A stretch of DNA of 64,000 bases from Platanthera guangdongensis (lineage: Eukaryota; Streptophyta; Magnoliopsida; Asparagales; Orchidaceae), in the NCBI GenBank assembly GCA_039583875.1, contig CM077153.1, forward strand, positions 67,650,482-67,714,481, written 5' to 3'. Below are positions 4,165 through 58,612 of this stretch, piece by piece. Each line of letters opens with the position of its first letter. Position 1 is the first letter of the stretch. A program made the position numbers and the translations under genes. The notes beneath the pieces are model-generated. The model saw only the letters and a program-made list of their open reading frames with translations, had not been told where the DNA came from and made no database searches.

Positions 4165-4850
4165 TAAGTATTTCTCTCGAGTAGGTCCTTAACTACTCGA
4201 GTAGATTGCTTGAGAGATACTCGAGTAAAAAGTTCTGTATACTCGAGTAAGAAAATTTTTCTCCTCGTGAAGTTAAGTAAAACACTCGAGTAGTTCATTG
4301 ACATACTCGAGTAGCTTACTTAGCTACTCGAGTAGATCACTCTTCCTACTCGAGTTGCCCAGAATTCAGGTTCCAAATTTTTTCTAAGTCATTTAATCGA
4401 GTAGGTACTCTATATACTCGAGTAAGTCTTTCATATACTCGAGTAAGTCTTTCACATACTCGAGTAAGTCCTTCATATACTCGAGTAGATTTCTTTTGTC
4501 TCGAGTAGTTAAACCAAACTACTCGAGTAGTTGTTTTTCCCGTGTGCAGAATATTTCTAAGTACTTGTCTCGAGTAGTTCTTCTAAACCACTCGAGTAGT
4601 TTAATTCTGCCTACTCGAGTAGTACAACTTGTACTCGAGTAGCTCAACTACTTCCCGTGAGAAACTTTCTGTGTACTCGAGTAGTCCTTCTAACATACTC
4701 GAGTAGTTGAGTATACATACTCGAGTACTTGACTATACATACTCTAGTAGTATTCTTCTACATACTCGAGTAGTCTTGATTTGTATACCCGAGTAATTTC
4801 TCTATGCTTACTCGAGTAGTCCTTGACCTACTCGAGTAGTTTTATACATA
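4165..4850 (+). promoter_or_regulatory. U3 array of TACTCGAGTA palindromes
   Basis: About 24 copies of CTCGAG, mostly within TACTCGAGTA, spaced roughly 15-40 bases apart; neighbouring spacers differ in sequence, except for some repeated AAGTCTTTCATA-like spacers near 4400-4480. The array stops just before the core promoter. It is probably a set of binding sites or foldback units; which one is not known. Confidence 0.8.
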
Positions 4851-4933
4851 CTCGTGTATATGACTTCATTTTCTCTGAAATTTCTTCTAAGTCCAGATTT
4901 GACAGATTTTCAAATACCGTGATATGATTGGTC

Positions 4934-4987
4934 CACGTGTACGTCATTAAAGCCGATTATGACCGTTATTAGTACTCCTATAAAAGG
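4934..4987 (+). promoter_or_regulatory. Core promoter of X LTR: G-box, TGACG site and TATA box
   Basis: CACGTG (4934-4939) is a G-box, bound in plants by bZIP or bHLH factors. ACGTCA (4941-4946) is the reverse of the TGACGT as-1-type site. TATAAAAGG (4979-4987) is a strong plant TATA box. The order after the palindrome array fits a U3/R boundary near 5010-5020. Confidence 0.65.
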
Positions 4988-5750
4988 TCTTGTCTAATCG
5001 ACAAACCCTAATCAGAAAAACCGATCTTTCAAGAAGAAAAATTCCTCCGAGTTTTGCATCCGTCGCTTTCCAAAAGTAATCGCTATTTCCTCTCTCTCTC
5101 TCCACAGAACGAAAGACGCCGCCGCCGCTGTTCTTCTCCGGCAAGGGTGTCGATCTTCAGAGGAAATAGACAGAAAAAGCTTTCCAGATCGAGATCCATT
5201 TTCATATACTCATCTTCTGTCCGATCGTGGAAGTAAGAAGTTCAGATCTACTGATTGCCGCGAATCCTTCTTCAACTTTTCTGATAAAGCTGCACGCCAA
5301 GAAGAAGATTTCAGTTGCTGTTTCATTTTTAGATCTGAACCAGACAATATTACTATTTGTATTTTTCAATACTTGTACTTTATTTCTGTAGGAGAAATTT
5401 TCTCCGAGTGTAGGAGTTTTTCACTCCGAGTTTGTAGGAAGGTGTTTCTTCCGAGTTGTAGATCCAGTTAGATTGGATTGAGGTTGTAGGAACTTTGTTC
5501 CGAGGGTAGGATTGTTTTTCAATCCGAGATAGTGGAGTAGCCGAGTCTAGTTCGTTGCTAGATCGGTGAGGGAAAGTGGATGTACCCAAGATCGGGGAAC
5601 CACTATAAATCTTGTCTCGTCTGTGATATTTTAGTAGATATATCTGTGCTATGTTTCAAGATTTTTTATTCCGCAAAATACGCACAACTCACCTATTCAC
5701 CCCCCTCTAGGTGATTTAGGTTGACAACTATTATCTTTCATCAACTCCTC

Positions 5751-6275
5751 TTCATCTCTTAGATAATGTGAGTGAAAGGAATTTCAGATCCAGATCTTGG
5801 CGAGTTTCTTCTTCAACAATTTCTGAAAAAGCCACAAAGTTCATAAGAAGAAGATCCTGCCCGAGACTTTCATATCTGAGAAACAATTACTGTTTGTATT
5901 TTCATTATTCTCAATTTTATTCTTGTAGGATATTTCTCTCCGAGTGTAGGAGCTTTTTCTCTCCGAGTTGTAGGAAACTTTTACCTTCCGAGTGTAGATC
6001 CATGTTGTGGAACGAGATTGTAGGAACTTTATTCCGAGGCATAGGATTGGTTTTCAATCCGAGATAGTGGAGAAGCTGAGTCTAGTGATTCGCTAGATCG
6101 ATGAGGGAAAGTGGGTGTACCCAAGGTTGGGGAACCACTATAAATATTTTGTCGTCTGTGATTGCTTGGTTGATTATTGTGTGCATAGATCTCTAAATTT
6201 TTATTCCGCTAAAAGATGCACAACTCACCTATTCACCCCCTCTAGGTGATCTAGGTAGATAACTATAACACTTTC
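5751..6275 (+). repeat. Partial LTR copy related to the X LTR (3' half)
   Basis: This stretch resembles 5221-5740: the TCTCCGAGTGTAGGAG motifs, GGGAACCACTATAAAT, then CACCCCCTCTAGGTGAT and an end at CTTTCA. It is clearly diverged and lacks U3. It may be a truncated older LTR of the same family or a tandem duplication of the LTR 3' half. Confidence 0.7.
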
Positions 6276-6289
6276 AATTGGGATAACTT

Positions 6290-7555: not shown

Positions 7556-9739
7556 TGTAATGCCAAGAAACTCGAAAGAGCAACGAGAGGCGTTTTGGGC
7601 TAAATTTGGAATTTGGCAGGGGGCACACGGCCTGGGACACGGGCGTATCCCAGGGCGTGTCGTGTTTGGGTCGACGATTTGGCCGAGTGGTCGACGAATT
7701 CTGGAGTCGACGATCGTCGAGCAGCGAACACGGTCTGATACACGGGCGTGTCTCAGGGCGTGTCGAGCTCGTGTCGATGATCTGCCATGGAAGTCTACTA
7801 TTTTCGATCGACGATATGTCGAGAGAGGGAACACGACCTAGGACACGGGCGTGTCCAAGGCCGTGTCGGGTGGTCAACGAACTGCGCTCGACGAAATGTC
7901 GAGACTGTGAACATGGCCTGGAGCCCAGGCATGTTCGGGTATGACACGGGCGTGTCAAATAGGACACGGGCGTGTCCAAGACCCGTGTGAGTCTCGGGTT
8001 GGTGTTGGTCCTGTGTTGATGGAGGAACATGCCCGGGAACACGGGCGTGTACTGTCTGACACGGGAGTGTCAGGTCGAACACGGGCATGTCAGGTGCTCA
8101 TGTATTTTTCGAGACGCGTCTATTTTGACGGCGAATGAGGGACACGGCCCTGGACACGGGCGTGTCGCAGGCCGTGTTTGGCCTAGGTTTTGCTTTTTAG
8201 CTACGGATCATGGCCGTTCGTTTCCTTATTTTGGGATCCGACGGCTGGGGGTTGTTCCTACTGGGATATACCCGGGATTGGGCCTTTGGAACCCTCATTT
8301 TACTTGAGTGGTTCTCTTTCTAAGTCTAGAGAGAGGGGAGAGCAAAGGAGGTAGAAGAAGCCTAGATCCGGTCACCGGCGGAGCTTCAGAGCTCCAAATC
8401 GCGAACCGAATTCGGATCTACGGAGGCAAGGACAGTGCGGTGCTTTTCATCAGCGTACATTTTCATGGCGCCATGGAAAAATGCTAGGATAACGATTCTC
8501 TACTTGAGCATGTGAAACTCTTCTTTTCCCTTGCATAGGAAGCCCGCACTCGCGAGTTTGCGGTGTGTTGAGGCGTTCCTTCGGGTAGACATGAATAGTC
8601 CCTATTGTGTACATGTAGAGTCCATAATCGAGACTGGATATAGGCATGATGTGTGAATCCTACCCGGACAAGTTGGTCTAGATCGGTGATGTTGCATTGC
8701 ATGAATGGCCGGAGAAGGCTCCGCGCGAATGTTTGTTTTTCGGGTTTTCTACGCGGTAGATTGCAACAGAGAGCCTTGGGGATTAACTCCAAGGTGCACC
8801 CGAAAAACTGGGCAGATGCGTGATTCTGCCAACATGGTGGCCTGGGAGCCAACCTAAACATAACTGAGTTATGTGATATGTGTAGGAGATACGGGACTCG
8901 GGGAAGCTTGACCCGCGCAGACGACTTAATTTACGTTGCGGTGTGAGCAACGGGTCAGGCAGAACCGTACCCGATCTATGTGGTTCGGTTAGAGAGACCT
9001 AAGGTACATGGTACTCGCCGTTGGCATAGATGGAGGGTCTTATGCAGTGGCCAGAAAGACCAGATGCTCACGAGATATTGCCGTCCTAGGGGCGGTGGTG
9101 AGTCAGCGGACTTGGACCGTGTTCACCGAGAATGTACCCTGAGAGCATGAGGTGTGTGGCCGTGCGTGCCTATGCCTGTGTTGATGTGTTGTTACACTAT
9201 ACTATTTTTTATGCTAACAAAGTGCAGGGAAGGAGCATCGCTGCCCCGGGTTGGGGGCGGGATCGTTATAATTTGGTCAGCATATCTGACCGTTGCCTTT
9301 GTTTGCCACAATGCGGTGGATTGTTGCTTGTAGGTGCTGCGGAGCCGAGTGCTAAATAGTGTGCTAAAGCCAAAGTTGCTGAACTAGCCCTCGAAGGCCT
9401 AATTTGAGTGTTTACTTATATTACTCATGTATGACCGGCCTGCATGCCGAGGTTTGGAAAACATTTTATGTTGAGCAAAATATTGTAAGGCCTTAAGGCC
9501 AGTACTTGTGTATTTGTACGATCATTCCTGTTGGCTTTGTAGTGGACATTCATGCTAGTAGCTGGGTTCTTTTATTTGCAACTATGAAAATTGCTTCCGC
9601 TAGAATAACTCTGTGTAGGACGTTGTACATTGGTTGGATGGTTTCCATTGAGTAACCGCCTGATATGTCAGTGGTATATGGCGTCGGGCCCCGGCTGGAC
9701 CTACTGTTATATGCTATGTGACGGATAGGGGGTGTTACA
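7556..9739 (+). repeat. 5' LTR of gypsy A
   Basis: It starts TGTAATGCC (the other copy has TGTAACGCC) and ends GGGTGTTACA. U3 (about 7610-8175) is filled with GACACGGGCGTGTC-type palindromes and GTCGA words. GATATACCCGG at 8265-8275 sits where a TATA box is expected. Long open frames here on both strands come from the palindromic composition and are not genes. Confidence 0.9.
7610..8175 (+). promoter_or_regulatory. U3 array of GACACGGGCGTGTC palindromes (A, 5' LTR)
   Basis: Repeated half-sites ACACGG and CGTGTC pair as GACACG-GG-CGTGTC or with longer gaps (GGACACGGGCGTGTCC-like), about a dozen times. TGTCGA and GTCGACGA words lie between them. The same array is in the second LTR (14665-15215) and, in other orientation, in D (58020-58540). 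Confidence 0.75.
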
Positions 9740-9740
9740 A

Positions 9741-14599: not shown

Positions 14600-16097
14600 T
14601 GTAACGCCCCGAAACTCAAAAGAGCGATGGGAGGCATTCTGGGCCAAATTTAGAATTTGGCAGGGGGCACGCGGCCTGGGACACGGGCATGTCCCAGGGC
14701 GTGTCGTGTTTGGGTCGACGATTTGTCCGAGAGGTCGACGAATTCTGGAGTCGATGATCGTCGAGCAGCGAACACAGCCTGAGACACAGGCGTGTCTCAG
14801 GGCGTGTCGAGCTCGTGTCGACGATCTGCCAGGGAAGTCGATGATTTTCGCTCGACAATATATTGAGAGAGGGAACACGGCCTAGGATACGGGCGTGTCC
14901 AAGGCCGTGTCGGGTAGTCGACAAACTGCGCTCGACGAAATGTCGAGACTATGAACACGGCCTGGAGCCCAGGCGTGTTTGGGTATGACACGGGCGTGTC
15001 AAATAGGACACAGGCGTGTCCAAGACCCGTGTGAGTCTCGGGTTGGTGTTGGTCCTGTGTTGATGGAGGAACACGCCCGGGAACACGGGCGTGTACTGGA
15101 TGACACGGGCATGTCAGGTCGAACACGGGCGTGTCGGGTGCCCGTGTGTTTTTCGAGACGCGTCGATTTTGACGGCGAATGAGGAGACACGGCCCTGGAC
15201 ACGGGCGTGTCGCAGGCTGTGTTCGGCCCAGGTTTTGCTTTTAAGCTACGAAGCGTGGTCGTTCGTTTCCTTATTTTGGGATCCGACGGCTAGGGTTTAT
15301 TCCTACTGGGATATACCCGGTATTAGGCCTTTGAAACCCTCATTTTACTTCAGTGGTTCTCTTTCTAAGTCTAGAGAGAGGGGAGAGCAAAGGAGGAAAA
15401 AGAAGCCTAGATCCGGTCACCGACGGAGCTTCAGAGCCCCAAATCGCGAACCGACTTCGGATCTACGGAGGCAAGGAGAGTGCGGTGCTTTTCATCCGCG
15501 TACATTTTCATGGCACCAAGGAAAAATGCTAGGATAACGATTCTCTACTTGAGCATGTGAAGCTCTTCTTGTTCCCTTGCATAAGAAGCCCGCTCTCGCG
15601 AGTTTGTGGTGAGTTGAGGCATTCCTTCGGGTAGACATGAATATTCCCCATTGTGTACATGTAGAGTCCATAATCGAGAACGGATATAGGCATGATGTGT
15701 GAAGCCTACCCGGACAAGTTGGTCTGGATCGGTGATGTTGCATTGCATGAATCGCCGGAGAAGGCTCCGCACGAATGTTTGTTTTTTGGGTTTTCTATGC
15801 GGTAGATTGCAACAGGGAGCCTTGGGGATTAACTCCAAGGTGCACCCGAAAAACTAGGTAGATGCGTGATTCTGCCAACATGGTGGCCTCAGAGCGAACC
15901 TGAACATAACTGGGTTATGTGATATGTGTAGGAGATATGGGACTCGGGGAAGCTTGACCCGCGCAGATGACTTAATTGATGTTGTGTTGTGAGCAACATG
16001 TCAGGAGGAACTGTACCCGATCTATGTGGTTCGGTTAGAGAGACCTAAGGTACGTGGTACTCACCGTTGGCATAGATGGAGTGTCTTAGGCAGTGGC
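14600..16097 (+). repeat. 3' LTR of gypsy A, first part
   Basis: TGTAACGCCCCGAAACTC starts the LTR. It follows 7556 onward closely, including the palindrome array and GGATATACCCGG near 15308. It breaks at GTGGC (16093-16097), the target duplicated by G, and goes on at 24075. Confidence 0.92.
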
Positions 16098-17621
16098 TGA
16101 TGCGTGTAATACGGCAAGCGCACCGGTCGCACAAGTAATAAAGTTTTGGGAGTAAATCCCCAAGTGTCGGTCTCTTGAGGAATGCAATTAGCGTAGAACG
16201 GCAACAGTAATGAGAATATCATTATGAGAGTTAAAAATAGAACAAAAAGAAAATAGCGGACTCGGGAGATTGTGGATGTTTGATCTACTGAACTAGTAAA
16301 AGCTATGCAGGTCGACGGCACCGCTTCGCAAGGTGAAATGGGTTTGTCGGCCGCTATGCCGAACTTCAGTTGGGCGAGTGGAAGGGAAACTAATGGATTG
16401 CAACGTTCTTGTGTGGATTGCAATCGGACAAGGCACAGGAATGAAGTGGATGTGGGGTGAGTGAGGCGCATTCACAGACAGAACTCACAAGCATAAGAAG
16501 AAACTAACATTCCATTAACTAGAAAGTAAACTTGATATTCAGGGATGGAAATGTTCATTACACTGCTCAAAACAGTCATAACACAGAGGAAGGGGAAGAG
16601 GAGTAAACCAAAAGATAATGAAGATCCACCGCGGGTCGTGGCCGGAGTAGCGAGTTGTCAATCCGCTTCTGGGCTCAGTCCAAGGAGGCTTCCGGTACCA
16701 ACGATCTGTCACCTCGAAGGCCTTTAAGTCCGTTCTCTAGGTTATCTACTTCACCAACTCTGCATGAAAGCTTGGAGTTGAAGTCATCAATGGCCGAGGG
16801 CTTCGCCGGAGTGTTGGAAAGCTTCAGAGTAAGTGGAAATGGCTTCCCGACGAAGGTGGAAGTGATGGAGCAGCTGGAGAGGTGAAAAGGCGATTCCCGC
16901 GCACTCTCCGATCGCAGCAAATGACAGGCGTTGACCTAAAATGCGGAGCAAGGCCTTTTATACGGAGACAGCAGAAGCAGTGCGCACGCTCAGTGGCGCA
17001 CGACCAGTGGTCGTGCGCACTGTAGGTCAATGATCGTGCGGCTTTTCCAAATAAACCTTCAACCTGGACAAGAAGCATCAGCATATACGCGCACGAGCAG
17101 TGGCACACGACCAGTGGTCGTGCGCACTATGGCCAGTGCTCGTGCGATTACCGAGACAGGGTTATGAAAAAGGGGGTGTAATGCGCACGAACAGTGGCGC
17201 ACGACCAGTGGTCGTGCGCAGGAAGTCCAGTGGTCGTGCGCTTACCCCAGGCTGATTCAATAGAAAACGTAGAGTAGTGCACACGATCGGGGGCGCACGA
17301 CCAGTGGTCGTGCGCATTAGATCCCCTGATCGTGCGCAGTATTCCTGTTTCACAATCATCCCGGAACACGCACACGACCCCTGTACCAGCAGAAGGGGCA
17401 GAAAGGCCACCAGAACGTGCACACCACATCCCCGAGATAGGGCTAGAGAATAACACAAAAAATGGAAACACAGAAAGCACACAGAAGCGGGTCTACAGTG
17501 CACTTACTCGTGAAATAGGTACATAAACACAAATAAGCAATAAAGGCTCTCAAGTGTAGTGCTAAGATGATAAAACTAGCCCAGATGAGTCCAAAAATCA
17601 GTGTAAAATGTGGACTCATCA
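16098..17621 (-). repeat. 3' LTR of G (left copy)
   Basis: Read on the minus strand it runs from TGATGAGTCC (17621) to GCATCA (16098). U3 (about 17340-16985) holds at least five palindromes with arms GCGCACGACCA and TGGTCGTGCGC around one central base, plus half-sites. TATAAAAGG on the minus strand (16954-16962) follows. Open frames across this stretch are products of the palindromes. Confidence 0.92.
16954..16962 (-). promoter_or_regulatory. TATA box of the left G LTR
   Basis: TATAAAAGG on the minus strand follows the palindrome array by about 25 bases. The copy in the other LTR is at 23402-23410. Confidence 0.7.
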
Positions 17622-20841: not shown

Positions 20842-21246
20842 TACAGCAAAGTAAGGAAGGGAGAAAAGAAGTTGAGGGATCCTACCGGAGGAGAGAGAGA
20901 CGAACCACCGGGGAGGAATCGGAAGAAGATGAGCGCCGACAACGCACGCGCAGCGGACCAAGCGGGAGATTAGGGCGCACGCACAGTGGACAGCGGCTGG
21001 AAAATAAAAAGAAACCAGGCATGCACACGACCAGTGGTCGTGCGCCGTGAAATTTTTCGCACGCCTGAGTTTTCAGTCTATTTCACACTGCTGACCACTT
21101 GGTGCAACAAAGAGCTCAACACACAGCTGGGCTACCACACCCAAATAATGAAATACAAACAAAAATTTTAACAAAAGAAACACTATCCTAGATAACTGTT
21201 GGGTTTATTATCTCCCAACAGGACTTATACAAAATCTGAGCATCTC
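20842..21246 (-). promoter_or_regulatory. Inter-ORF region of G with one copy of the LTR palindrome
   Basis: A near-complete copy of the U3 palindrome (arms CACACGACCA and TGGTCGTGCG) lies at 21023-21045. On the minus strand it is followed by TTTTTATTTT and a C/T-rich stretch leading to the ATG at 20841. This could be an internal promoter for the second ORF. The evidence is only the shared word and layout. Confidence 0.4.
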
Positions 21247-22546: not shown

Positions 22547-24069
22547 TGATGCGTGTAATACGGCAAGCGCACCGGTCGCACAAATAATAAAGTTTTGGGA
22601 GTAATTCCCCAAGTGTCGGTCTCTTGAGGAATGCAATTAGCGTAGAACGACAACAGTAATGAGAATATCGTTATGAGAGTTAAAAATAGAACAAAAAGAA
22701 AATAGCGGACTCGGGAGATTGTGGATGTTTGATCTACTGAACTAGTAAAAGCTATGCGGGTCGACGGCACCGCTTCGCAAGGTGAAATGGGTTTGTCGGC
22801 CGCTATGCCGAACTTCAGTTGGGCGAGTGGAAGGGAAACTAATGGATTGCAACGTTCTTGTGTGGATTGCAATCGACAAGGCACAGGAATGAAGTGGATG
22901 TGGGGTGAGTGAGGCGCATTCACAGACAGAACTCACAAGCATAAGAAGAAACTAACATTCCATTAACTAGAAAGTAAACTTGATATTCAGGGATGGAAAT
23001 GTTCATTACACTGCTCAAAACAGTCATAACACAGAGGAAGGGGAAGAGGAGTAAACCAAAAGAGAATGAAGATCCACCGCGGGTCGTGGCCGGAGTAGCG
23101 AGTTGTCAATCCGCTTCCGGGCTCAGTCCAAGGAGGCTTCCGGTACCAACGATCTGTCACCTCGAAGGCCTTTAAGTCCGTTCTCTAGGTTATCTACTTC
23201 ACCAACTCTGCAGGAAAGCTTGGAGTTGAAGTCATCAATGGCCGAGGGCTTCGCCGGAGTGTTGGAAAGCTTCAGAGTAAGTGGAAATGGCTTCCCGGCG
23301 AAGGTGGAAGTGATGGAGCAGCTGGAGAGGTGAAAAGGCGATTCCCGCGCACTCTCCGATCGCAGCAAATGACAGGCGTTGACCTAAAATGCGGAACAGG
23401 GCCTTTTATACGGAGACAACAGAAGCAGTGCGCACGCTCAGTGGCGCACGACCAGTGGTCGTGCGCACTGTAGGTCGATGATCGTGTGGCTTTTCCAAAT
23501 AAACCTGCAACCTGGACAAGAAGCATCAGCATATACGCGCATGAGCAGTGGCGCACGACCAGTGGTCGTGTGCACTATGGCCAGTGCTCGTGCGATTACC
23601 GAGACAGGGTTATGAAAAAGGTGGTGTAATGCGCACGAATAGTGGCGCACGACCAGTGGTCATGCGCAGGAAGTCTAGTGGTCGTGCGCTTACCCCAGGA
23701 TGATTCAATAGAAAACGTAGAGTAGTGCGCACGATCGGGGGCGCACGACCAGTGGTCGTGCGCATTAGATCCCCTGATCGTGCGCAGTATTCCTGTTTCA
23801 CAATCATCCCGGAATACGCACACGACCCATGTACCAGCAGAAGGGGCAGAAAGGCCACCAGAATGTGCACACCACATCCCCGAGATAGGGCTAGAGAATA
23901 ACACAAAAAATGGAAACACAGAAAGCACACAGAAGCTGGCCTACAGTGCACTTACTCGTGAAATAGGTACATAAACACAAATAAGCAATAAAGGCTCTCA
24001 AGTGTAGTGCTAAGACGATAAAACTAGCCCAGATGAGTCCAAAAATCAGTGTAAAATGTGGACTCATCA
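22547..24069 (-). repeat. 5' LTR of G (right copy)
   Basis: It matches 16098-17621 over its full length with about thirty differences. The palindrome array lies at about 23430-23790 and the TATA box at 23402-23410. It ends at TGATGAG on the minus strand next to the TSD GTGGC. Confidence 0.92.
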
Positions 24070-30017: not shown

Positions 30018-30027
30018 TTATATATAA
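30018..30027 (-). promoter_or_regulatory. TATA box of the left C LTR
   Basis: TTATATATAA reads as TATATATAAG on the minus strand. It follows the palindrome arrays on that strand. The other LTR has it at 38416-38425. Confidence 0.65.
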
Positions 30028-30354
30028 AAACTGACACGGGTAGGGACACGCCCGTGTCCTTACCCGTGTCCTGCTTCGGGCGAAGCATTACAGATGGTTT
30101 CAGTGTCGGTTCAATATTCGACACGGGTAGGGACATGCCCATGTCCCAACCCGTGTCAACATGACACGGTCGTGTTCCCTGGCCGTGTCCTCCTTTGGAT
30201 ACATCTCGACGAACTTAACTCGACACAACGACACACGGGTAGGGACACGCCCGTGTCTCTACCCGTGTCATACATTTCATCGATCTCGACACGTTCTGTC
30301 GAGTTAAACTTGTCTCACACATACACACACGGGTAGGCCCGTGTATTACCTCAT

Positions 30355-30610
30355 TGTGTCGACACCTCAACATCTGGGTGTCGACACACTGTGTTGACAC
30401 CTGGTTCCAGTGTGTCGACACAGCATGTGTCGACACACGGTGTCGACACTGGTGTGTCGACACCTCAACCCCAGGGTGTCGACACCTAGTTCCAGTGTGT
30501 CGACACAGTGAGTGTCGACACACGGTGTCGACACAGTGAGTGTCGACACACGGTGTCGACACCAGTGTGTTGACACCTCAACCTGAGTGTCGGCACACTG
30601 TGTCGACACC
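30355..30610 (-). promoter_or_regulatory. U3 array of GTGTCGACAC palindromes (C, left LTR)
   Basis: Thirteen perfect copies of GTGTCGACAC or its 8-10 bp core plus several one-base variants lie in 256 bases. The right LTR has a shorter, more mutated version (38770-39005). Confidence 0.85.
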
Positions 30611-30862
30611 TTGACCCAATGTGTCAACACCTCGACACCAAAGTGTTGACCAATGACTCGGGTGATGCAAATCCTATTCACATGTGCTGCCCAGTTGTCA
30701 GCACCCCCAAACACAAGTCAGCTCTCCCGACTCAAAAACACGCACGAGGTGCCTAGCGCGATTCAGGACGTTACAAATCCTATAATTAAAATAAAAGATT
30801 TCGTCCCTGAAATCAGGCTTAAGCTATGGGGAGAAAAGCATAACAAAATATACAATATGCTT

Positions 30863-35642: not shown

Positions 35643-38600
35643 TGTAAGACCCCCCTCCAGGATCCAAAAACACGGCACGAAGGGGGTCTTATGCCCAGAA
35701 CAGATGCCTTGCGGTAGCATTAACACACGGTCAAACTTGTACCACAAGACCCCTATTCCGCCGGCTACAACCAATATCAATATAAACATGCCAACCCAAC
35801 CAAATTATAAGCAAGGAGAAGTCAAATCCACACTAAGTATATATGTCCAAATGCATCAAATAAGAGAAGCTAAAACATGCTTCTACAATATCAGAGTATA
35901 GCTATAAAGTTGCCCAAACGGGCTGCATCATAATTTCACAACACTCACATCCGTAACCGACGGTAGGGGCGGTACCGTCACTTCAGGCCCTGTCGTCCTG
36001 GCCTGGCTGTCCTGCTGCAAAGTCTGCGGCTGCTCTACCTGCGGGGTGACCTCCTAAAAAGGAAGACGTAGTAACTGTTTGTCGAAAATACTAAGTGGCT
36101 TCACATCTGCTCCCCCGGCGACTCCTCGGCACCGGGCGGAGAAAAGAGCAAGTGTAATATATATATACAAGTAGTAAAGCAGGTACAAGTAGGTGGTAAT
36201 AGTACATGAATAACAATATTAAAAACTAGCAGTTCTACTTGAATGACAATATTATAAACTAGCAGTTCTACTTGAATGACAATATTATAAACTAGCAGTT
36301 CTACTTGAGCAATTAGTAAATCAACAAGTACAAGTAACTACAGCAGGAAAGTAACTTAACTTATAAGGATGCCCATACAAGCTTATAAGTTAAGGATCGG
36401 GTTACATAAAAGTAATTCATCGTATAAGAGTGCCCATACAAACTTATACGATGAGGATCTTATTGTGCAATGTTATGAAATGATATGTATGCTATGCAAT
36501 GACTTACCCATGATCACATACATGTAATTGCTATGTCGACATAGACTATAGTTCCCACTATTCGAGCAGGTAGCTAACCTCTCAGGCATCATCCGCCGTG
36601 GCCAGGCGGTGACAGTAGAGCGGGCATATCTACTACTAGGCGGGTATCCACACTACTTCACCTAGGCCTCCATACACCTCAACGCTAAGAACACATCAGC
36701 GGAGCCCATACGTATTGTGGCCCAGCGAGGTCTCGGGTAGATGTGCACCGAGAACACAGCCCGAACTGGCCTGGTGTTACCCGGAAGGGGCCCCGGAAGA
36801 AAGCATGAGGACACAGCCCAACCATTCACTTGGTACGGAAGGGGCCTCAGGACGTGAACACCGAGGACACAGCCCAACCGCCCAAAGTCTAATTATCAAC
36901 TCCCGTCGGTCTGACGATCGGCGAGCCCGTAGACCTGCCACACTATCCTTAACCAAGGATTACGACACCGCGTGTTGACTCACACCGTATGCAAATTCCA
37001 CATCACCGTGGAATGAGAGGGGCCTCAAAAGTAAGCACGAGGACACAACCCTACCATCCATCTATACCTCATATCAACTCGAACCCAACTAGTGACGGTC
37101 AACACCGCACTTACATCCATCCACAATACTACCTGTAGGGAGACTACACTCTAAGTATTGGACTACTACATTTCATTCTAACCATCATACATACTCATGG
37201 CCATGGTTTATCCTTCTATTTGTCATTCCAAATGGTTTCAACATATCACAAACATGATGCGCCTTAATAATAATCTACCAATTTGTATCTAGTCATTTCA
37301 TTCATCATATTATAAACATGATGCACATTTATAATAATCTATCAATTTTAGCAAGTCATATCATGCAATAAAGCTTGCTTCACAATTCAGTTTTATGGAA
37401 TCTAATTAACAAGATTTATCATTCATAGCACTATGGTGGTCAGCATAAAATAGTTCATCAAAATCTCGAGTTAATTTTCAACATCGATTCCATAGAATTC
37501 AAATTCATATTATACAAACCCCAGAATTTAAGTGCTGAATAAATCTAGACAGCAACTTCGACTGGATATTCCTGAAGCTAAAGGAATCCAGTGAAGACGT
37601 GTAATCCATCGATGGAAAGGTCTTTCCATGGGCTACAACTTTTAAGTTTAGACCACAACCCAGATACAATAGTATCAATCTTGAAATCAGCCTTGAAGTC
37701 CGCTGCGTACAAAACACAATTTCTGCATGAAGGATTTATCGGATGTCATTTTCGTTCAGGCTTTCCTATGGCTACACACTTCGCTTGAAGTCGTGCAACC
37801 ATTCTTTAGAAAGGTATTTTCAAGGGCTTCAACTTTCATGTTTAGACAAAAGCCCAGATCTGACCACAACCTACATGAAAATGGCCAAGCAGATCACTGC
37901 GCGCAGAATACAGATTCTGCACGTATCTTAAAGTGGGATGACCGGCATCGGTTCATCATCCTCTTCAAGTCGGTCTTCCAAAATCACATCAGAAATTCCT
38001 CCTCCCTTATTCACCCTCAAGAGGCCATGACTCTTCACGTAATCATCCCCCATCTTCACGTAGAAGGTTGGAGAGGTTGAAGACACCACTAACCTTAGAG
38101 CACAAGCCCTAAAACGGCCTCTTCCTAGAGAAATCACCATCTCGCAAGTCTAGACTCTTTTGAGTTGACATCTCGCTTAGATAACTACAGATCTAGCACC
38201 AAGGGAGAGGGGAGGAAGCTCACATCATTTCCGGCATTTCCACTATTTCTGGCCATGGATCGTGTAACTCTTCTCGGTGGCATCTTCTCCTTCACGGCGG
38301 CGGTGGATCTCCTCCTCTAGAATTGGCTACAACAACTTCCTTCTCTCAACATGAGTTTCTCTCATAAAATAGGGGATGAAGTGAGCATGGAAATGGCTAG
38401 GGTTTTCACTTCCCCTTATATATAAAAACTGACACGGGTAGGGACACGCCCGTATCCTTACCCGTGTCCTTCTTCGGGCGAAGCGTTAAAGACGGTTTCA
38501 GTGTCGGTTCATTATTCGACACGGGTAGGGACACACCCGTGTCCCAACCCGTGTCCACATGACACAACCGTGTTCCCTAGCTGTGTACTTCTCTGGATAC

Positions 38601-38710
38601 ATCTCAAAGAACTTAACTCGACACAATGATATACGGGTAGGGACACGCCCGTGTCTCTACCCGTGTCATACATTTCATCGATCTCGACACGTTCTGTCGA
38701 GTTAAACTTG

Positions 38711-38745
<35 letters not shown>

Positions 38746-39141
38746 TGTAGGCCCGCGTCTTACCTCATTGTGTCGACACGAGAGTGTGGACACCTCAACA
38801 TCTGGGTGTCGACACACTGTGTCGACACGTGGTTCCAGTGTGTCGACACAACATGTGTCGATACACTGTGTCGACACCGGTGTGTTGACACCTCAACCCC
38901 AGGGTGTAGACATACTATGTCGACACCTGGTTCCAGTGTGTTGACACAGCGAGTGTCGACACACGGTGTCGATACCTTGACCCAATGCGTCAACACCTCG
39001 ACACCAAAGTGTTGACCAATGACTCGGGTGATACAAATCCTATTCACATGTGTTGCCTAGTTGTCAGCACCCCCGAACCCAAGTCAGCTCTCCTGACTCA
39101 AAAACACGCATGAGGGGCCTAGCGTGATTCGGGTCATTACA
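35643..39141 (-). repeat. 5' LTR of C (right copy)
   Basis: It matches 27276-30775 along its length. The hairpin pair is at 36355-36455, TATA at 38416-38425, nested inverted repeats at about 38432, 38518 and 38632, and the GTGTCGACAC array at 38770-39005. A CT/CA microsatellite at 38712-38745 is specific to this copy. Confidence 0.92.
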
Positions 39142-40114: not shown

Positions 40115-41575
40115 TGTTGGAACGGATGTTTCATATTCCCTGAGTTTGAGAATATCAAATCCCAGGTTGTATTTGATCACGTCTTCTATTGATAGAGTGT
40201 GCAGGTTGACAGGTGCAAGCGAAGAAGAAGTTTCTTATGGCCACTAACGCCGAGCGGTAGAAGTTACCGCCGAGCGGTAGCCGTGAATTAAATGGACTGA
40301 GCTCTCAGTAAACTACCGCTCCGCGCTAGTCCTACCACTCATGCTAACACAATGGATTATTTTTGCCAGGCTCTCGAGAAATTACCGGCATGCGGTAGTG
40401 CCACCGCGTCGTGTTAGTCTCTCGACGAGTATCTAGATGAATTTCTCAAAAAAACAAATTACCGTAGGCGATAGCATTTACCGCGCCGTGCTAGCCTCTC
40501 ACAAATATCGACACGACTGTTATGCATCGTCATGCCCAATATTACTGCGCGGCGCTAGCAACGATAAAATGACAAATATTCACTTTTAAATATTATTCTA
40601 GATTTGGACGAAACCTGGAACAACAAGCACGTGAACCTACCGCCGGGAGCTAGTCTTACCGCAGACGGTAGCTTATTTTCATTAAGACATATAAAAGGCC
40701 CCCTTGGCTTCTATGCCTGATGATTTGAGTGAAAGAAAGGATAGGAGTTCGTGAATTCTAGGGCTCAGCCTCTATTTCTTGCGCTCCGTTCCACAAGTCT
40801 CCATCGAATAAGAAGATCGTCATCTCTCTCCCGCTCATGACCGAAAGACTCCGACGATCCAAGATCTACATCGAATATGAAGAGCTGACCGGTTTCCAGC
40901 AAATGGAGATCTCAAGCACCGGCCGCAGATCGCTCTACAGAGAAGACTTCAAGAGGGAGAACTTCATCTTTAAAATCTTTACATCTTTTACTCTTGTAAT
41001 CTTTCTTTTTCTAAATCTTGTAGAGAGGAAAATCAACCGGTAAGGGTCGTCAGAATCTTGGTAGGACTCCATGGGAAATCGTCGTGGGGATAAGGATGTT
41101 TAGATCAGGAGGATGCAGTGGGGCTCTAAGACTATTCCTTGTGTGGAGGTGAAGAGCCGGCTCGAAGACTTTTTCTGGAGGGAAAAGGAGAGAGCCAACC
41201 GGTCCGTGGAGTGGATCTGTATAGAAACCAAAATAGTGTTTATATCTCATCGCCTTCGATCTCCGGCATCATGGAGATCACGATTTTGTAATCATCTTGA
41301 ACAATTGTTATTTTAATTCATGAAATGGAATTTGTTTTTCTCCTCTAATTGATTCTGTGATTGTTCTAGTTTTGTTAAGTGTGTGCGTGTGCTGTGGGGC
41401 TAGCAAATGAAGTTGCATAGGAAAATGAGTTCATAGACTTACAGCCATGTGATAGATACCTAACATGTCGCGGTAGCTTCCAGAACTCGATTTCCTGGGA
41501 CGAAGAACTTTAAAATTCCAGTTAACGCATTAAACCTTATTCACCCCCCTCTAATGTTGGCCAATATATCCAATA
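40115..41575 (+). repeat. 3' LTR of copia B
   Basis: It starts TGTTGGAACGG and ends TCCAATA, a mutated partner of TGTTGGA, after the block CACCCCCCTCTAATG. It is 1461 bp. U3 has iterated TACCGC-N3-GCGGTA words (40240-40675), then TATAAAAGG at 40690-40698. The next bases ATATTCTCATCC match E's LTR at GTATTCTCATCC (49753), which suggests B inserted there. Confidence 0.82.
40240..40698 (+). promoter_or_regulatory. U3 palindromes and TATA box of the B LTR
   Basis: ACCGCCGAGCGGTAG appears twice near 40250-40280. Looser versions follow (ACCGCTCCGCGCTAG, TACCGGCATGCGGTA, TACCGCAGACGGTA near 40659). The array is older and more decayed than those of X, C and G. TATAAAAGG follows at 40690-40698. Confidence 0.65.
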
Positions 41576-42459
41576 ATATTCTCATCCCAAGAGTCAAGGG
41601 AGATGAGGGGGAAATGGGGAGATGATTGGGGTGGACCATGGTCTCCCTCCATAACTCCTCTCTCTCTTTTTCTTCTTTCTCCCTCCTCCATTAAAGGGGA
41701 ACTTGAGGTTTCTCTCTCCTAGTCACCATTTCCAGAATTAAGTTGGCATTCCATGTAAATATCAACCTCCTAAAGCTTGTAGACCACTCAAATTGGGCTT
41801 AGCCCAAGTGGATTGGGCTAGGTTAGGTCAACTTGAGTTTATTTGACCAACTTTAGTGTTGTGTTGATTTGATCAATTTGACCTTTTGGGTTAACCCCAA
41901 TGGGTCCTTAGTGACCCATTGGCCTCTCCTAAGGTTGAGGGAGACTTGGGTAGGGTTGGTTTGACACCTTGGTGGTCACTCAACCCTTATTAGGATACTT
42001 TGACCATTTACGGTTTAGGTTGACTTTGGTCAACTTGACCTATTTGGTTGACCCTAATAGGTGGTTAGTGACCCATTGGACTCCCCAAAGGGTTAGGAGG
42101 ACTTGGTTAGGGTTGGTTTGAGACCTTGGTGGTCACTGGACCCTTATTAGGGTACTTTGACCATTTTAGGGTTTAGGTTGACTTATGTCAACTTGACCTC
42201 TTGGGTTGAACCCAATGGGCCCTTAGTGGCCCAATGAACCTCCTAAAGGGTTAGGAAGATTCAGGTGGGTTCAAGGAGTCAAGGTGAAGCCCTAAAGTCA
42301 AACCCTAGATTTAGTGATTGGGTCGTGCTATTTGCAGACCAGAGTGATTCTAACTTCATGCCCCAGTTCACCTAGTCTACTTGAGCTTCCTAGGGTTTTG
42401 TCTTAACCTAGTCATGACAAAACCACTCCTAGGGGTCTAGTTGTTTGAGGGATGTTACA
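41576..42459 (-). repeat. 3' LTR of E, U3 portion
   Basis: On the minus strand it starts TGTAACATCCC (42459). It contains three tandem units of about 158 bp, each opening with a GGTCAACTTGACC-type word (41871, 42028, 42186). It aligns with 49753-50643. Confidence 0.85.
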
Positions 42460-49670: not shown

Positions 49671-50643
49671 TTTCCGTGGGAGAGGAGGTGAAGGGGTGGT
49701 CGACCATGGTGGATGGGCTCCTCCCATTAGTGTTGGCTGGCTGGAATTGATGGTATTCTCATCCAAAGAGTCAAGGGAGATGAATTGGGACAATGGGGAG
49801 ATGAATGGGGTGGCCCATGGTCTCCCTCCATAACTCCTCTCTCTCTCTCTTTCTTCTTTCTCTCTCCTCCATTAAAGGGGAAATTGATGTTTCTCTCTCC
49901 TAGTCACCATTTCGAGAATTTAGATGGCATTCCATAAAAATTTCAGCCTCCTGAAGCTTGTAGACCACTCAAATTGGGCTTAGCCCAAGTGGATTGGGCT
50001 AGGTTAGGTCAACTTGAGTTAATTTGACCCACTTTAGGGTTGAGTTGACTTTGGTCAATTTAACCTTTTGGGTTGACCCCAATTGCTCCTTAGTGACCCG
50101 TTATCCTCTCCTAAGGTCTAGGGAGACTTGGGTAGGGTTGGTTTGACATTTTGGTTGTCACTTGACACTTATTAGGGTACTTTGACCATTTTAGGGTTTA
50201 GGTTGACTTTGGTCAACTTGTCCTATTTGTTTGACCCCAATGAGTGTTTAGTGACTCATTGGACTCCTCAAAGGGTTAGGATGACTTGGGTAGGGTTAGT
50301 TTGACATCTTGGTGGTCACTTGACCCTTATTAGGGTACTTTGACCATTTTAATTTTTAGGTTGACTTCGGTCAACTTGACCTCTTGGGTTGACCCCAACG
50401 GGCCATAAGTGGCCCAATGAATCTCCTAAAGGGTTAGGAAGGTTCAGGTGGGGCTAAGGAGTCAAGGTGAATCCCTAAAGTCAAACCCTAGGATTGGTGA
50501 TTGGGTTGTGCTATTTGTAAACCAGGGTGATTTCTACCCTCATGCCCTAGTTCACCTGGTCTACTTGAGCTTCCTAGGGTTTTGTGATGACCTAGTCATG
50601 ACAAAATCACTCGTAGAGGTCTAGTTGTTTGAGGGATGTTATA

Positions 50644-53560: not shown

Positions 53561-56158
53561 CTGCTGCCTCCTAACAAATTGATTATGTTGGTAATTGGCC
53601 TAGAAATGCTTTTAATAAATTTTCTGCTGCTTCTAATTTTCCTGCACCCAGTTTTGCTTTTCCGAACAATTATAATCCTGCTTTGCGTAACCACTCAAAT
53701 TTCTCGTGGAGTAATCCGACGAACGCTATTTGCCTGCCCATGCAACATGATTTTATACCACCTCCACCACTTCAAAATTTTCAAAAATCTCCATCTTTGG
53801 AGGAAATACTTTCGAAATATATAAACGCAAATGACGCAACCATTAGAAACCTCACAGGACCTATCAAAAATTTAGAGAACCAAGTAGGGCAGCTCGCAAA
53901 AATTATACCCAAGCGACCTCCCAGGTCACTTCCTGCAAATACCGAGCCCAACCTTAGAGAGCAAACGAAAACCATAACTCTTCAGAGTGGGAAGCAAGTT
54001 TCTTGTATAGTTAGCGAAGAACCCGAGGCAAGCTCCGCCCCTATTTCAAATATTCCACCCACACAAAATGAATTTATCACTCCACCACATGTATTTAAAA
54101 AAGATCCTACTCCACCATACACTCCTCAACTTAACAAAAACGAATTGATGATCAATATAATCGCTTCTTGGAAATGTTTAAGCAGATTCACATAAATTTG
54201 CCCTTCCATGAAGCGATATCTCAATTGCCCAAGTACGCTAAGTACTTGAAGGATCTTCTAACTACTAAGAAAAAGTTAGAAAATTTATCGCACGTCACTT
54301 TAAATGCTGAGCACTCCGCCATCTTAATGAATGGCTTACCAAAGATGATCAATGATCCAGGTTGTTTTTCTATCCCGTGTGTCTTTGGTGACCTATTTGT
54401 CAAGCACACGCTAGCCGACTTAGGAGGGAGCATCAATTTGATGCCATTTTGTTTATTCAAGAAGCTAGGATTGGGTATCCTTAACCCCACACATATGAGT
54501 ATTCTAGTAAAAGTCGACAAATTCATCTTCCCGGTTGATTTTGTCATTCTGGACATTGAAGAGGATGTCGAGGTTCCCCTGATCCTTGCCACCTCGAGCG
54601 CTATCATTGATGTAAGCAACAGGAAGCTCTTTTTGCGAGTCAGGGACAACGAGGTTACTTTCTCCATTACCCCGTCTATGAAAAATACCTTAGAAAATGA
54701 TGAATCGTGTTTCTTCCTTGATGTTTTAAGTGATGACACTTCCTACAGCCTTTCCGAAAATGATTTTTCTTCTTTTTATTCTTCTTCGACTAACCCGCCC
54801 CAGTGTCTGTAAGAAATGGCAATGGCGGCCGATTCGCCACATTCAAATTTTCCTTATAAGTCAAAATTATATGAAGAAATGATTTTTGAAAAAGAAAAAT
54901 CCTCCAAATCATCTTGCGAAGAACCCCCTACCCTATAAATAAAAGAACTACCTGAACATCTAAAATACGCATTCCTAGAAAAAAACTCCAAACTGCCCGT
55001 AATAGTATCGACCTATTTAACTGAATTAGAAAATTATAAACTTCTTCGAGTTTTACAAAAACATCGCCGAGCTATCGCATGGCAGATTTCTGATATCAAG
55101 GTCGTAAGCCTATCTTTCTGCACTCATAAAATTTTAATGGAAGATAATTCGCGTAGCTATCCAACCTTTGCACTGATTGAACTCAAATATGAAAGAAGTA
55201 GTAAAAGTGAGGTAATGAAACTTTTAGACTCGAGAATTATCTGCCCCATATCAGAGAGTAAGTGGGTTAGCCCTGTTCAGGTAGTGCCAAAGAAGGGAGG
55301 GATCACGATAGTCTTGAATGAGAATAACGATTTAATTCCGACATGGATGGTGACGGGGTGGCACATATGTATAGATTATCGTAAATTAAACGACGCCACC
55401 CTCAAGGACCACTTTCCCTTGTTGTTCATCAATCAAATCTTAGAACATTTATCCGGCCATAGCTTTTACTATTTTCTCGATGGACTCTCGGGCTATTTTC
55501 AAATTCCCATTTCGCCCGAGGATCAGGAGAAAAAACTTTTACTTGTCCCTTCGGCACCTTTGCCTACCGAAGAATGTCGTTTGGATTATGTAATACACCA
55601 GCATCATTCCAACGATGTATGATAGCCATATTTGACAAGTATGTTGAAAGTATAACAGATGTTTTAAGTGATGACATGTCCTGTTGCGAGTAGCTTTACG
55701 GTGGGAGCCATGTTAGGACAACACATATCAAAGAACTTCCACCCCATTTACTATGCGAGTAAAACACTCACATCCCCATAAGAAAATTACACTACGATGA
55801 AAAAAGAACTTTTAGCTGTTATTTTTGCCTTTGATAAATTCCGCCTGTATATAACACTTTCGGAAATTATAGTTTTCACAGACCACTTGGCCCTCAAGTA
55901 TTTGCTTTCTAAATCGGATGCCAAGCCACAGTTAATTTGATGGATCTAACTCCTCCAGGAGTTCGACTTGAAAATCCGAGATAAGAAGGGGGCCGAGAAT
56001 TTGGCCGCAGACCATCTCTCACACTTAGATAACCCGTATATTTAAAATTTAGACGAAAAAACTTTTAATGATTATTTTACCGATGAGAAGCTGTTTTCAA
56101 TTAACACATCCCCTAATCCTTGGTTTGAAAACTTTGTCAACTATTTAGTGGCTCGTGT
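53561..56158 (+). pseudogene. Athila-like gypsy F: gag end, protease, RT and RNase H remnants
   Basis: The order is gag C-terminus (GPIKNLENQVGQLAKII, KTITLQSGKQV), protease (TLADLGGSINLMPFCLFKKLGL, VKVDKFIFPVDFVILD), RT (VIKLLD-type start, ISESKWVSPVQVVPKKGG, CIDYRKLNDAT, FLDGLSGYFQIPI) and RNase H ([37 protein letters not shown]). Protease carries ADLGG in place of the usual D-T/L-G-A. A one-base loss near 54145 shifts the frame between gag and protease, stops lie near 54939 and 55683, and a frameshift lies near 55535-55550. An internal deletion near 55670-55690 removes the RT catalytic region, joining RT fingers to RNase H. It ends at CGTGT where D is inserted. Confidence 0.88.
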
Positions 56159-58612
56159 TGTAACACCTCCCCTGTAATGACCGTATAATATGGGTCCGGC
56201 CGGGGCCCCACAACATACGAACGCCACAGCTTTAGTATTATAAGTTGATATACTACCCACACTCAAAACACTTTGCACAACACAGCGGAAACATAAGCAA
56301 GACTAGAAGTTATCCACCACTACAAGAGTAAAAAGTTGGCCTTATGGCCTTACAACACAAGAGAGTCCAAACTCACATAATACAACAATCATGAAAGTGC
56401 ATAAGCACTCCTAGTCTACCTCGGCATGTAAGCCGGACAACATGAGTCTCAAACATGCAATATCATATAAGAAAAGACACAAAAGAAGGGAACACTTCGT
56501 GAGGCCTAGGCCTTTCTGGCCGGCGAACTAGCTCCTGCTTGCGATCCTTGCCCTGTAAAAATTATTAGTAACGTGGGTCAGCAAAGACTGACCTCAAACT
56601 GTGTAACCAACACATCTCCTCCCGGCCGCCCCTAACGGACCCCGGGGAACCCTCCAACCTGCAAGTCAGCACTTCGTATGTAATATATAAATATAAACCA
56701 GAAATGCATTAAGAACAGGCTTGGATGTCTCAAACAACATACACGTTCTCTACTGGTTGAGCATATAATAAAAAAGGGTCTACTTATGCAACATGAATGC
56801 AACACCTGGGCTTCACCCAAGGCACCCTAAAGCGTATGCATCTAGCACAACATCACATCATTTGGGTACTCACCATTTCCCCATTGGCATAAAGCCGCAA
56901 ACAAAAAGGGAAGCACAATTTCCCCCAACGGCACACAAGCCGCCACATGGAACTCTTGCCAAGGCCCCACCCGCTCAAGGTCTTAGACCCGGGCTTGCCT
57001 ACAAGCTCTGACGTCTCATGTCAGGATTCCAACAAACACAACTGACCGATTCTAAGAAGCCTTGCTGGACCCCACCCGATCATGGCCTCATTGCCCGGGC
57101 TTCCCCCATGCTTGGCATTCTCGTCAATCTCACAGAAGGGGACTAGTCTCGCCGGGACAGTCTCCACACATGACGTGTACGTCACGGGATAGTCAGCCGA
57201 CCATGGAGACATAGCCACACCTTGGCACATCACAAACCAAGACAATTCCACCCTAGTCCCTCGTTTGTACTGTAGCGTTCCGGCGCACCAAGGAAACCAT
57301 CTACCACTCATGCGGAGCTAACCTTGTCCACCAAGGAAACCATCTACCGCCATTGAGGAGCTAACCTTGTCCGGTTCCGGCTACACGTACTCACTCGAGA
57401 AAAATGGGAAAACATTACCACATCACAAACATCATCTTGTCGCAACGGATCTCTACGAATCCTTAAAGCTCGTATGCAACATCACCGAGTCGGATTAACG
57501 GTCGCGACTACGGCTTCACCCACCATGCCTAATCCACTAACGGAGCGGATCTCTAATGCAAAACATGCCGGGGACGGACTCAATCGACCCGGAGGCTCCT
57601 CTAGAACCTTGGCGACCCAAACCCCTCTCATTTGAGTGTTTGGTGCCCAAAACTAGAAAAGAAAAGATGATAGAACGTGCATCCTAAAACCGAGAGGAGA
57701 AGTGTCGTTACCTTCCGACTCCTCTTCCTAGCCATGGCAAAATAGCCGGATGAAAACCTTCGCAACGATCTAGCCTCCACGGATCCGGACTCGGCTCGCG
57801 ATTTGGAGCACCGAAGCCTCTCCGACAACCGGATCTCTACTTCACCTTCTTCCTTGCTCTCCCTTCTCTCTAGAACTTAGAAAGAGAACCACTGAAAGGA
57901 AAATGAGGGTTTCTAAGGGTCCAATCCCGAGTATATCCCATCAGGAATAACCCCCAGCCGTTGGATCCCAAAATAAAGAAACGAACGGCTTTGATTCGGG
58001 ACTGAAAAGCTAAACCTGGGCCGGACACGGCCTGGCACACGCCCGTGTCCAGGGCCGCGCCCCCCATTCACCGTCAAAACCGACACACCTGGAACAGCAC
58101 ACGGGCATCCAACACGCCCGTGTTCTACCTGATACGCCCGTGTCCCAACTGACACGGCCGTGTGGTCGGCCGTGTGCCTCTAACGGCACAGCCCCGAAAA
58201 CAACCCGAGAACTACACTGGTACTGGACACGCCCGTGTCCTTGCCGTGTCTACCTCAACACACCTGGGCTCCAGGCCATATTCACGCCTCGACACCTGAC
58301 ACGGCCTTGAACACGCCCGTATCCTAGGCCGTGTGCCTTGTCTCGACACCTCATCGAGCGATGTCTCGACACTTCGTCGAGCGAAGTTCGTCGACTGACT
58401 GACACGGCCTTGGACACGCCCGTGTCCTAGGCCGTGTGCCTTGTCTCGACACTTCGTCGAGCGATGATCGTCGACCTCTCGACCAAAACGTCGACTGGAG
58501 CCTGACACGCCCTGGGACACGCCCGTGTCCCAGGCAGTGTGCCCCCTTCCAGTAACCAATTTTCCCTCTCGACGAACCCGAAATTAAATGGTACAAATTT
58601 TGGGGCGTTACA
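56159..58612 (-). repeat. 3' LTR of D
   Basis: On the minus strand it runs from TGTAACGCCCC (58612) to GTGTTACA (56159) and is 2454 bp. U3 has GGACACGCCCGTGTCC-type palindromes and TCGA words (58020-58540), then GATATACTCGGG (57929-57940), the counterpart of the site at 8265 in A. Confidence 0.9.

Follow-up and report, generated by a model that had tools for sequence, protein, structure and literature searches.

The 64-kb window analysed here (the whole stretch at positions 67,650,482 to 67,714,481 of contig CM077153.1 from the orchid Platanthera guangdongensis) holds nested plant long terminal repeat (LTR) retrotransposons, designated X, B, A, G, C, E and D, and the U3 regions of their LTRs carry arrays of short palindromes. 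The analysis covers this one window, to which the strength of every statement below refers. Recurrence of the palindromes, their symmetry, their position and the conservation of their cores relative to the spacers are direct observations. In our reading the arrays are probably enhancers composed of dimer-binding sites for sequence-specific, most likely host, factors. They would be promoter-proximal, binding proteins as symmetric dimers (perhaps two dimers together in A/C/D and G), and would act upstream of the LTR core promoter and, in X and G, also upstream of an open reading frame (ORF) in env position, so that genomic and env-type transcripts would both depend on a single factor. The site differs between the sets of elements (X, B, A/C/D, G), each of which would therefore respond to a different factor, most likely one of the host's transcription factors. 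The copies would multiply by local duplication, while selection in the active lineage would keep the palindromic core and the spacers would drift.

Recurrence of palindromic words

A motif-blind scan of 318 overlapping 600-bp windows counted copies of the best single palindromic word in each (arms of 5, gap 0-3, at most one mismatch; words without G or C, or with fewer than three letter types, were excluded). A word recurred at least four times in 39 scan windows, all located on the arrays of X, A, G, C, B, E and D, the internal array of X included. No scan window reached four copies in eight block shuffles, and one reached three. In 22 more scan windows only a non-palindromic word recurred at least four times; nine of these are edges of arrays and 13 are other repeats, and therefore repetition alone does not imply palindromy.

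The match counts of the individual motifs, compared with 100 dinucleotide shuffles of the window, point the same way. The X motif TACTCGAGTA (at most one mismatch) has 41 matches against 1.36 expected: 13 at 709-983, one at 1138, 25 in the 3' LTR and two stray. The core of A, C and D, GACACGNNCGTGTC, has 27 matches with at most one mismatch against 0.05 expected, all inside the LTRs of these three elements, and GTGTCGACAC at the same threshold has 32 against 1.28, of which 29 are in the two C LTRs and three in D. For the 23-mer of G (at most three mismatches) there are nine matches against 0.00, eight in the LTRs and one internal at 21023; for the B motif (at most two mismatches) eight against 0.96, seven of them in the B U3; and for the E motif (at most two mismatches) 11 against 2.95, two of them exact.

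A half-site test that does not presuppose a palindrome found the mirrored half at one fixed gap for 18/23 half-sites in X, 9/13 in the X linker, 13/24 in C, 6/13 in A, 6/11 in D, 4/8 in G and 2/7 in B, whereas the best single pair in 300 shuffles per region was 2. In E this test selects another word (TTGGG, 3/5) and not the motif of the first-pass annotation. Tandem Repeats Finder reported arrays on every family except B. A count of all dyads with arms of at least 6 was dropped as the main statistic: over the window it is dominated by two AT repeats (53168-53260 and 49120-49148), and in this count the array regions of X, A, G, C, D and E exceed the shuffles, B and the X linker fall within the shuffle range, and some internal regions show an excess as well. 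Every recurrence test confirms the arrays of X, A, C, D and G, with less support for those of B and E. For B two tests give a weak result: its 2/7 mirrored half-sites equal the shuffle maximum, and the dyads of its whole LTR show no excess.

Position before the TATA box and number of independent sets

According to the first-pass annotation, several unrelated families each had a private palindrome placed directly upstream of a TATA or TATA-like box. The placement holds for X (120 bp; the nearest of three TATAWAW matches in the LTR, picked with the array in view), B (37 bp), G (19 bp) and C (5 bp; the nearest of several TATAWAW matches, chosen knowing the array position), and loosely for A and D. 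These two have only GATATACY (GATATACC in A, GATATACT in D) in a conserved block about 87 bp past the array; no TATAWA was found in the parts of the A LTR searched, and the sole TATAWA match of D, TATATAT at LTR position 1924, is far downstream of the array. No TATA box was found in the E LTR. A layout common to Copia and Ty3-type elements is therefore present in X, B, G and C and loosely in A and D. The further statement that the sequence is not shared is contradicted by A, C and D, which have one motif in common, and only four sets of palindromes are independent, those of X, B, A/C/D and G; seven independent palindromes are rejected for the same reason. Nor does every family have a single motif, as C carries both GACACGGGCGTGTC and the distal GTGTCGACAC. 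The interval to which the arrays had been assigned does not take in the X array before ENV (709-983).

Internal arrays before env-position reading frames in X and G

An env-position ORF is present in two of the elements, X and G, and these are also the only ones whose motif occurs again in the internal region. In X the sites of LTR and linker are 19-24 bp apart, about two helical turns, in 35/40 gaps (a count from the 31-match LTR list with three two-mismatch sites, at LTR positions 856, 878 and 1682, omitted); within the linker this holds for 12/13 gaps in a 14-site list that adds a two-mismatch site at 689. Helical phasing as a general rule was rejected, since it fits X and fails in C. The linker array is followed by TATAAAT at 1090, a candidate internal promoter for the ENV-like ORF that is suggestive only: TATAAAW would occur by chance in the 253-bp gap with a probability of about 8% (42 matches on both strands of the 64 kb). 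The distance from array to TATA is similar at the two places, 106 bp internally and 120 bp in the LTR.

The ENV-like frame of X was searched as separate parts on either side of its stop codon at 1906-1908. The N part weakly matches Transposase_32 (PF20167, E 1.1e-7, below the gathering score), and the C part has one relative, a Platanthera zijinensis protein with 43% identity, found by a search that scored the best 8000 candidates by shared words. The pol end of X is 46% identical over 116 aa to the RNase H region of B, and its 202 aa gave no direct Pfam match. The terminal polypurine tract (PPT), AGGGGGAG-AT/TG, is at 3839, and further octamers at 2036 and 2918 lie inside the ENV-like frame. 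The observed/expected (o/e) CpG ratio in X is 1.15-1.21 in the arrays, 0.16 in the ENV-like region and 0.07 in the stretch before the LTR, so that 1237-3848 is CpG-poor; the motif itself contains CpG.

In G the internal cluster is just upstream of the second ORF (ATG at 20841), the frame of which is broken. The chance control covers the 23-mer of this cluster; its GCGTGCG half-sites were identified by visual inspection, as was a sequence similar to a 3' splice site at the same place, so that splicing may be an alternative route for expression of the second ORF. The internal region of G (17622-22546) consists of a gag-position ORF and the broken env-position ORF, with three PPT-like AAGTCTGGGGG copies at 19067, 18138 and 17634. 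No homologs of the gag-position ORF were found, and no pol was found with query pieces from C and D, no Athila query having been run. The primer site TGGCGCCGTTGCCGGGGA is one that we take to be Athila-like, and the Ty3-type label of G rests on it only. Primer site, PPT-like copies and env-position ORF together point toward Athila; membership is not claimed, and G is perhaps a non-autonomous Athila-like element.

Foamy viruses use the LTR and an internal promoter for their 3' genes under one transactivator. What we propose for X and G, one set of sites serving both the LTR and an internal promoter, would resemble this arrangement, by analogy only, as the elements are unrelated.

A motif shared by A, C and D

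The motif GACACGGGCGTGTC is common to A, C and D, which are related elements of chromovirus type. Their pol pieces are 43-70% mutually identical and their gag pieces 28-42% (Pfam and tblastn); all three have an SH3_Tf2-1 integrase tail, and a Chromo domain match was obtained in C only (E 9.8e-7). TGGTATCAG, presumably the Met-tRNA primer site, follows the 5' LTR in each. At most about 300 bp separate the integrase-tail ORF from the LTR, which leaves no room for an env-position ORF, and there is no internal array. The ORF that reads through the A array gave no homologs.

At the centre of the motif, the sense strand reads GG in 31/36 sites with at most two mismatches. Outer ACACGG half-sites stand exactly 12 bp from the inner ones (three pairs in A, two in D, and two in each of the C LTRs), joined by linkers that are mostly CCTRG in A and D and GGTAR or GGTTG in C. 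These linkers are mirrored on the opposite side, which results in both-side changes between C and A/D in columns 9-11 of the 40-column alignment. The 17-pair units are 89.5% paired, a value that comes from 18 units chosen among 50 rows for having outer arms, with both LTRs of an element counted and the structure read from the same sequences; two of five measures fail against shuffles (151 and 480 of 500). Between A and D the sites are 83% identical (122/147), the remaining U3 68% (308/456) and the downstream LTR 77%, the sites being defined by consensus, and both elements retain the 103/103 and 75/20/20/75 spacing.

Elements B and E

B appears to be a single older Copia element interrupted by A and C, as suggested by its run of Copia domains and the element borders. 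It carries RVT_2 and gag_pre-integrs and PPT octamers at 39844, 39914 and 39950, and has a degenerate PPT/attachment site at the LTR. The B linker, cut by C and degraded, gave no match to the repeated motif (RM) and no env-position ORF, and an ENV could have decayed there.

In E the inverted GGTCAA/TTGACC rides on a 157-bp tandem repeat, and E is doubtful as a family of this layout. Of its pol only an integrase relic is left, with 39-53% identity to C and D, and no primer site was recognised.

Proposed enhancer arrays and the alternatives

The cores of X, the X linker, A, D and distal C have a mean pairwise identity of 0.87-0.95, with flanks at 0.29-0.51, and those of G one of 0.98, with flanks at 0.40 and 0.62; the cores of proximal C (0.71) and B (0.70) are looser, and all these values are partly circular because sites were collected by consensus. 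The spacers of X are near background (0.33-0.43 against 0.28-0.29 expected), with neighbouring spacers at 0.51, so some local duplication has occurred. Changes affect 31 of the 310 pair positions in X, the X linker and the C 3' LTR; 30 of them are one-sided, one is two-sided but unpaired, and none is compensated. This is the pattern of protein dimer sites and not of hairpins, within a test that takes sites with at most three mismatches and whose view is thereby limited. Protein binding, activation, selection and the host origin of the factor are what we infer from these patterns.

Of the three roles offered by the first-pass annotation, host factor binding fits best; foldback could apply to A/C/D and G and suits X and distal C poorly. 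A third, CpG-rich targets, is compatible with the arrays of X, B, A, D, C and G, where CpG o/e is 0.99-1.47 against 0.73-0.92 in the rest of their LTRs, and not with E, where it is 0.06.

Several observations weigh against enhancer arrays of this kind, among them the restricted view of the compensation test just mentioned. An all-dyad excess is present also in internal, non-array regions of E, G and D, and part of the recurrence is explained by local tandem duplication. A and D lack a TATA box near the array, the C spacings (13-15 and 20-22) show no helical phasing, and E fits poorly. RNA folding of the arrays beats shuffles in five of the six folded (X, C, A, G, B and E; z -6.7 to -17.6, with B at -1.7), and the long nested inverted arms of A/C/D and G also suit foldback. 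Furthermore, array positions are not spared after insertion: CpG transitions per CpG site in array and rest of LTR are 0.139 and 0.175 in A, 0.139 and 0.175 in C, and 0.095 and 0.045 in G. Decay in the arrays resembles that elsewhere in the LTR, and therefore any selection acts in the active lineage, for which alone it can be inferred.

The folding results bear on the possibility that hairpins form in U3-containing RNA or single strands (the 3' end of genomic RNA, antisense or read-through transcripts) and matter chiefly by giving rise to double-stranded and small interfering RNA, or as a packaging or 3'-end structure. We regard this as quite unlikely. The strong z-scores and the both-side changes in the nested arms of A/C/D would agree with it, as would the small RNAs drawn to maize Sirevirus palindromes (Bousios 2016, as cited in PMC10760457 and PMC5311732). 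However, any self-complementary repeat yields high folding scores, and 7/100 shuffles of B fold at least as well as B itself; the gapless 10-bp palindromes of X and distal C would make poor hairpins alone, none of the 31 changed pairs being compensated; and the location before TATA and before ENV follows promoter logic.

Very doubtful is the binding of an element-encoded factor, either an activator or a VANC-like anti-silencing protein, perhaps from the ENV-like ORF. Such a factor would explain why sites are private to each lineage and occur at both the LTR and the ENV gene, as seen in the private sites of X, B and G and in the additional motif copies that precede the extra ORF of X and of G; the weak Transposase_32 match of the X N part leans the same way, and VANC targets are family-specific tandem motif arrays in non-coding DNA of transposable elements (PMC5735166). 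But A, C and D carry arrays without space for an ORF beyond gag-pol, and Bousios 2010 (PMC2829016) counts four of 13 RM-bearing Sireviruses without ENV. Moreover, no DNA-binding domain above the cut-off was found in the X or G ORFs, the sole DNA-binding name listed being TMF_DNA_bd (E 4.8), and no similarity was found between the N part of the X ENV-like frame and the pieces of the G second ORF.

Least probable, and in our opinion very unlikely, is a neutral by-product, in which short U3 units expand by slippage or unequal exchange and palindromic units are favoured by pairing in replication or reverse transcription, for although the Tandem Repeats Finder arrays (E in particular) and the unequal copy number of the C LTRs (17 and 12 sites) would be expected from it, spacers are near background identity while cores remain symmetric, A and D conserve their spacing, the GG-centred motif is common to A, C and D, and arrays adjoin TATA in X, B, G and C.

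Relation to known systems

The enhancer arrays proposed here have a counterpart in the RM boxes of Sireviruses, which Bousios 2010 (PMC2829016) describes as high-copy and palindromic, located in the upper LTR half before TATA and also before ENV, in CpG-rich stretches. The same paper reports RMs as Sirevirus-specific among Ty1/copia, gives a CGG-CCG signature for 12 of 13 published RMs, Tnd-1 (ACAATCGATTGT) lacking it, and states that the authors did not conclusively identify an ENV promoter. X and B match the RM layout and both fit Sireviruses. B combines a Copia pol, multiple PPT octamers and an RM with CCG/CGG halves before TATA, and its half-site GCGGTA is that of the Inga RM (AGCGGTASTACCGCT), in the opposite order to the published signature. 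The X core CTCGAG lacks the CGG-CCG signature, which is not strictly defining given Tnd-1. The further PPT octamers of X are inside the ENV-like frame, whereas the published copies are mostly after ENV; for X the comparison with the published octamer concerns the positions described, which agree. A, C and D, as chromovirus-type elements, and G fall outside Sireviruses, and X offers TATAAAT 106 bp after the array.

In maize Sireviruses palindromes cluster in the cis-regulatory part of the LTR (Bousios 2016, cited in PMC10760457 and PMC5311732), as they do here; families and sequences differ. Repeat arrays, sometimes palindromic, are described as cis-regulatory regions of diverse transposable elements in PMC10760457, which gives references for this. 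The VANC target arrays of VANDAL transposons are likewise family-specific arrays of short motifs near transposon genes that evolve by tandem duplication; their motif YAGTATTAC is non-palindromic, and VANDALs encode a transposase (PMC5735166 and PMC10398659). Neither DUF1985 nor DUF287 was matched in the 30 ORFs scanned of the 93 with at least 100 aa.

Palindromic arrays in Ty3/gypsy plant LTRs were not found in the open-licence literature, judged mostly by titles and abstract openings, which does not establish their absence from print, and for the motif letters of A, C and D no relevant title was among those listed. Within that literature three features seem to be new: the layout in chromovirus-type elements and G, the X array with TATAAAT before the ENV-like ATG, and the G motif before the second ORF. 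X and B would then be additional Sirevirus-type cases, and the chromovirus-type elements and G may extend a Sirevirus-style promoter architecture beyond Sireviruses.

Other features of the window

The elements and their features are listed in table 1. The 3' part of the X LTR contains a direct duplication of about 390 bp (5349-5740 and 5886-6276, 81% identical). In IMG/VR, two TACTCGAGTA words at a distance of 21 bp occur in a nearly identical segment of four phage contigs, which is taken as a coincidence in what is probably one phage lineage; a separate search of IMG/VR for an array pattern gave 30 pattern matches and no lead. A fragment at 50648-52105 is about 70-75% identical to parts of the D LTR and misses the U3 array portion; near it, the ORF at 54939-55622 (+) weakly matches reverse transcriptase. 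The AT repeat at 53168-53260 is a microsatellite of about 46 units.

Table 1. Elements, arrays, promoter boxes and reading frames, in positions of the window
Element	Feature	Position	Strand	Remarks
X	Element	left edge of window to ~6276	+	3' part of Copia element; pol end 1-609
X	Internal (linker) array	709..983	+	13 TACTCGAGTA sites, at most 1 mismatch, between pol end and ENV-like ORF
X	Candidate internal TATA box TATAAAT	1090..1096	+	106 bp past linker array, 147 bp ahead of ATG 1237
X	ENV-like reading frame	1237..3486	+	ATG at 1237; open frame 1069-3486; single in-frame stop 1906-1908
X	3' LTR	3849..6276	+	Starts after PPT AGGGGGAG + AT/TG; end placed by eye
X	U3 array	4174..4858	+	25 sites, at most 1 mismatch; 28 including three 2-mismatch sites
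X	LTR TATA box CTATAAAAGG	4979..4985	+	120 bp past U3 array
B	Element	~6310-7555, 24764-27275, 39142-41576		Older Copia element, three pieces (inferred), interrupted by A and C
B	LTR	40116..41576	+	E bounds right side
B	U3 array TACCGC-N3-GCGGTA	40245..40652	+	7 sites, at most 2 mismatches; 1 exact
B	TATA box	40690..40696	+	37 bp past array
A	Element	7556-24763	+	Split by G
A	5' LTR array GACACGGGCGTGTC	7636..8166	+	7 sites at most 1 mismatch, 9 at most 2; outer ACACGG half-sites
A	TATA-like element GATATACC	8266..8272	+	Non-canonical TATA
A	3' LTR array GACACGGGCGTGTC	14680..15211	+	8 sites, at most 1 mismatch
G	Element	16098-24069	-	Inserted in A; target duplication GTGGC
G	TATA box CCGTATAAAAGG	16956..16962	-	19 bp from outer half-site, 33 bp from last full palindrome
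G	3' LTR array	16996..17315	-	Four 23-bp palindromes GCGCACGACCACTGGTCGTGCGC (3 exact, 1 with mismatch) and flanking half-sites
G	Internal cluster	20941..21065	-	23-bp palindrome 21023-21045 (1 mismatch) and three GCGTGCG words
G	5' LTR array	23444..23763	-	Four palindromes (2 exact, 2 with mismatch)
C	Element	27276-39142	-	3.5-kb LTRs; target duplication TCACG
C	TATA box TTTTATATATAAGG	30020..30026	-	
C	3' LTR proximal array	30032..30270	-	Nested GACACGGG-GACACGGGCGTGTC-CCCGTGTC units; last ends 5 bp before TATA
C	3' LTR distal array GTGTCGACAC	30356..30630	-	17 sites, at most 1 mismatch
C	5' LTR arrays, proximal and distal	38430..38975	-	12 GTGTCGACAC sites, at most 1 mismatch
E	Element	41577-50643	-	
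E	3' LTR	41826..42198	-	Inverted GGTCAA/TTGACC about once per 157-bp tandem unit; weak
E	5' LTR	50007..50381	-	157/158-bp tandem units
D	Element	56159 to beyond window end	-	
D	TATA-like element GATATACT	57930..57936	-	
D	3' LTR array GACACGGGCGTGTC	58036..58529	-	6 sites at most 1 mismatch, 8 at most 2

Implications

A broader view would make palindrome arrays a general regulatory module of plant LTRs, with a dyad address private to each lineage, placed at the LTR and at an internal env-type promoter and read by a matching, possibly element-encoded, factor for family-specific activation; we consider this generalisation unlikely. The narrower proposal of enhancer arrays for dimeric factors has consequences of its own. 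If the layout holds across Ty3-type elements, palindrome arrays would be a predictable mark of LTR promoters, and each factor could be found by DNA affinity purification sequencing (DAP-seq). The linker array of X with its TATA-like box may provide a concrete place to test whether Sirevirus ENV has a promoter of its own. Finally, GACACGGGCGTGTC, common to A, C and D despite the divergence of their U3 regions, is a candidate lineage-wide enhancer of chromoviruses.

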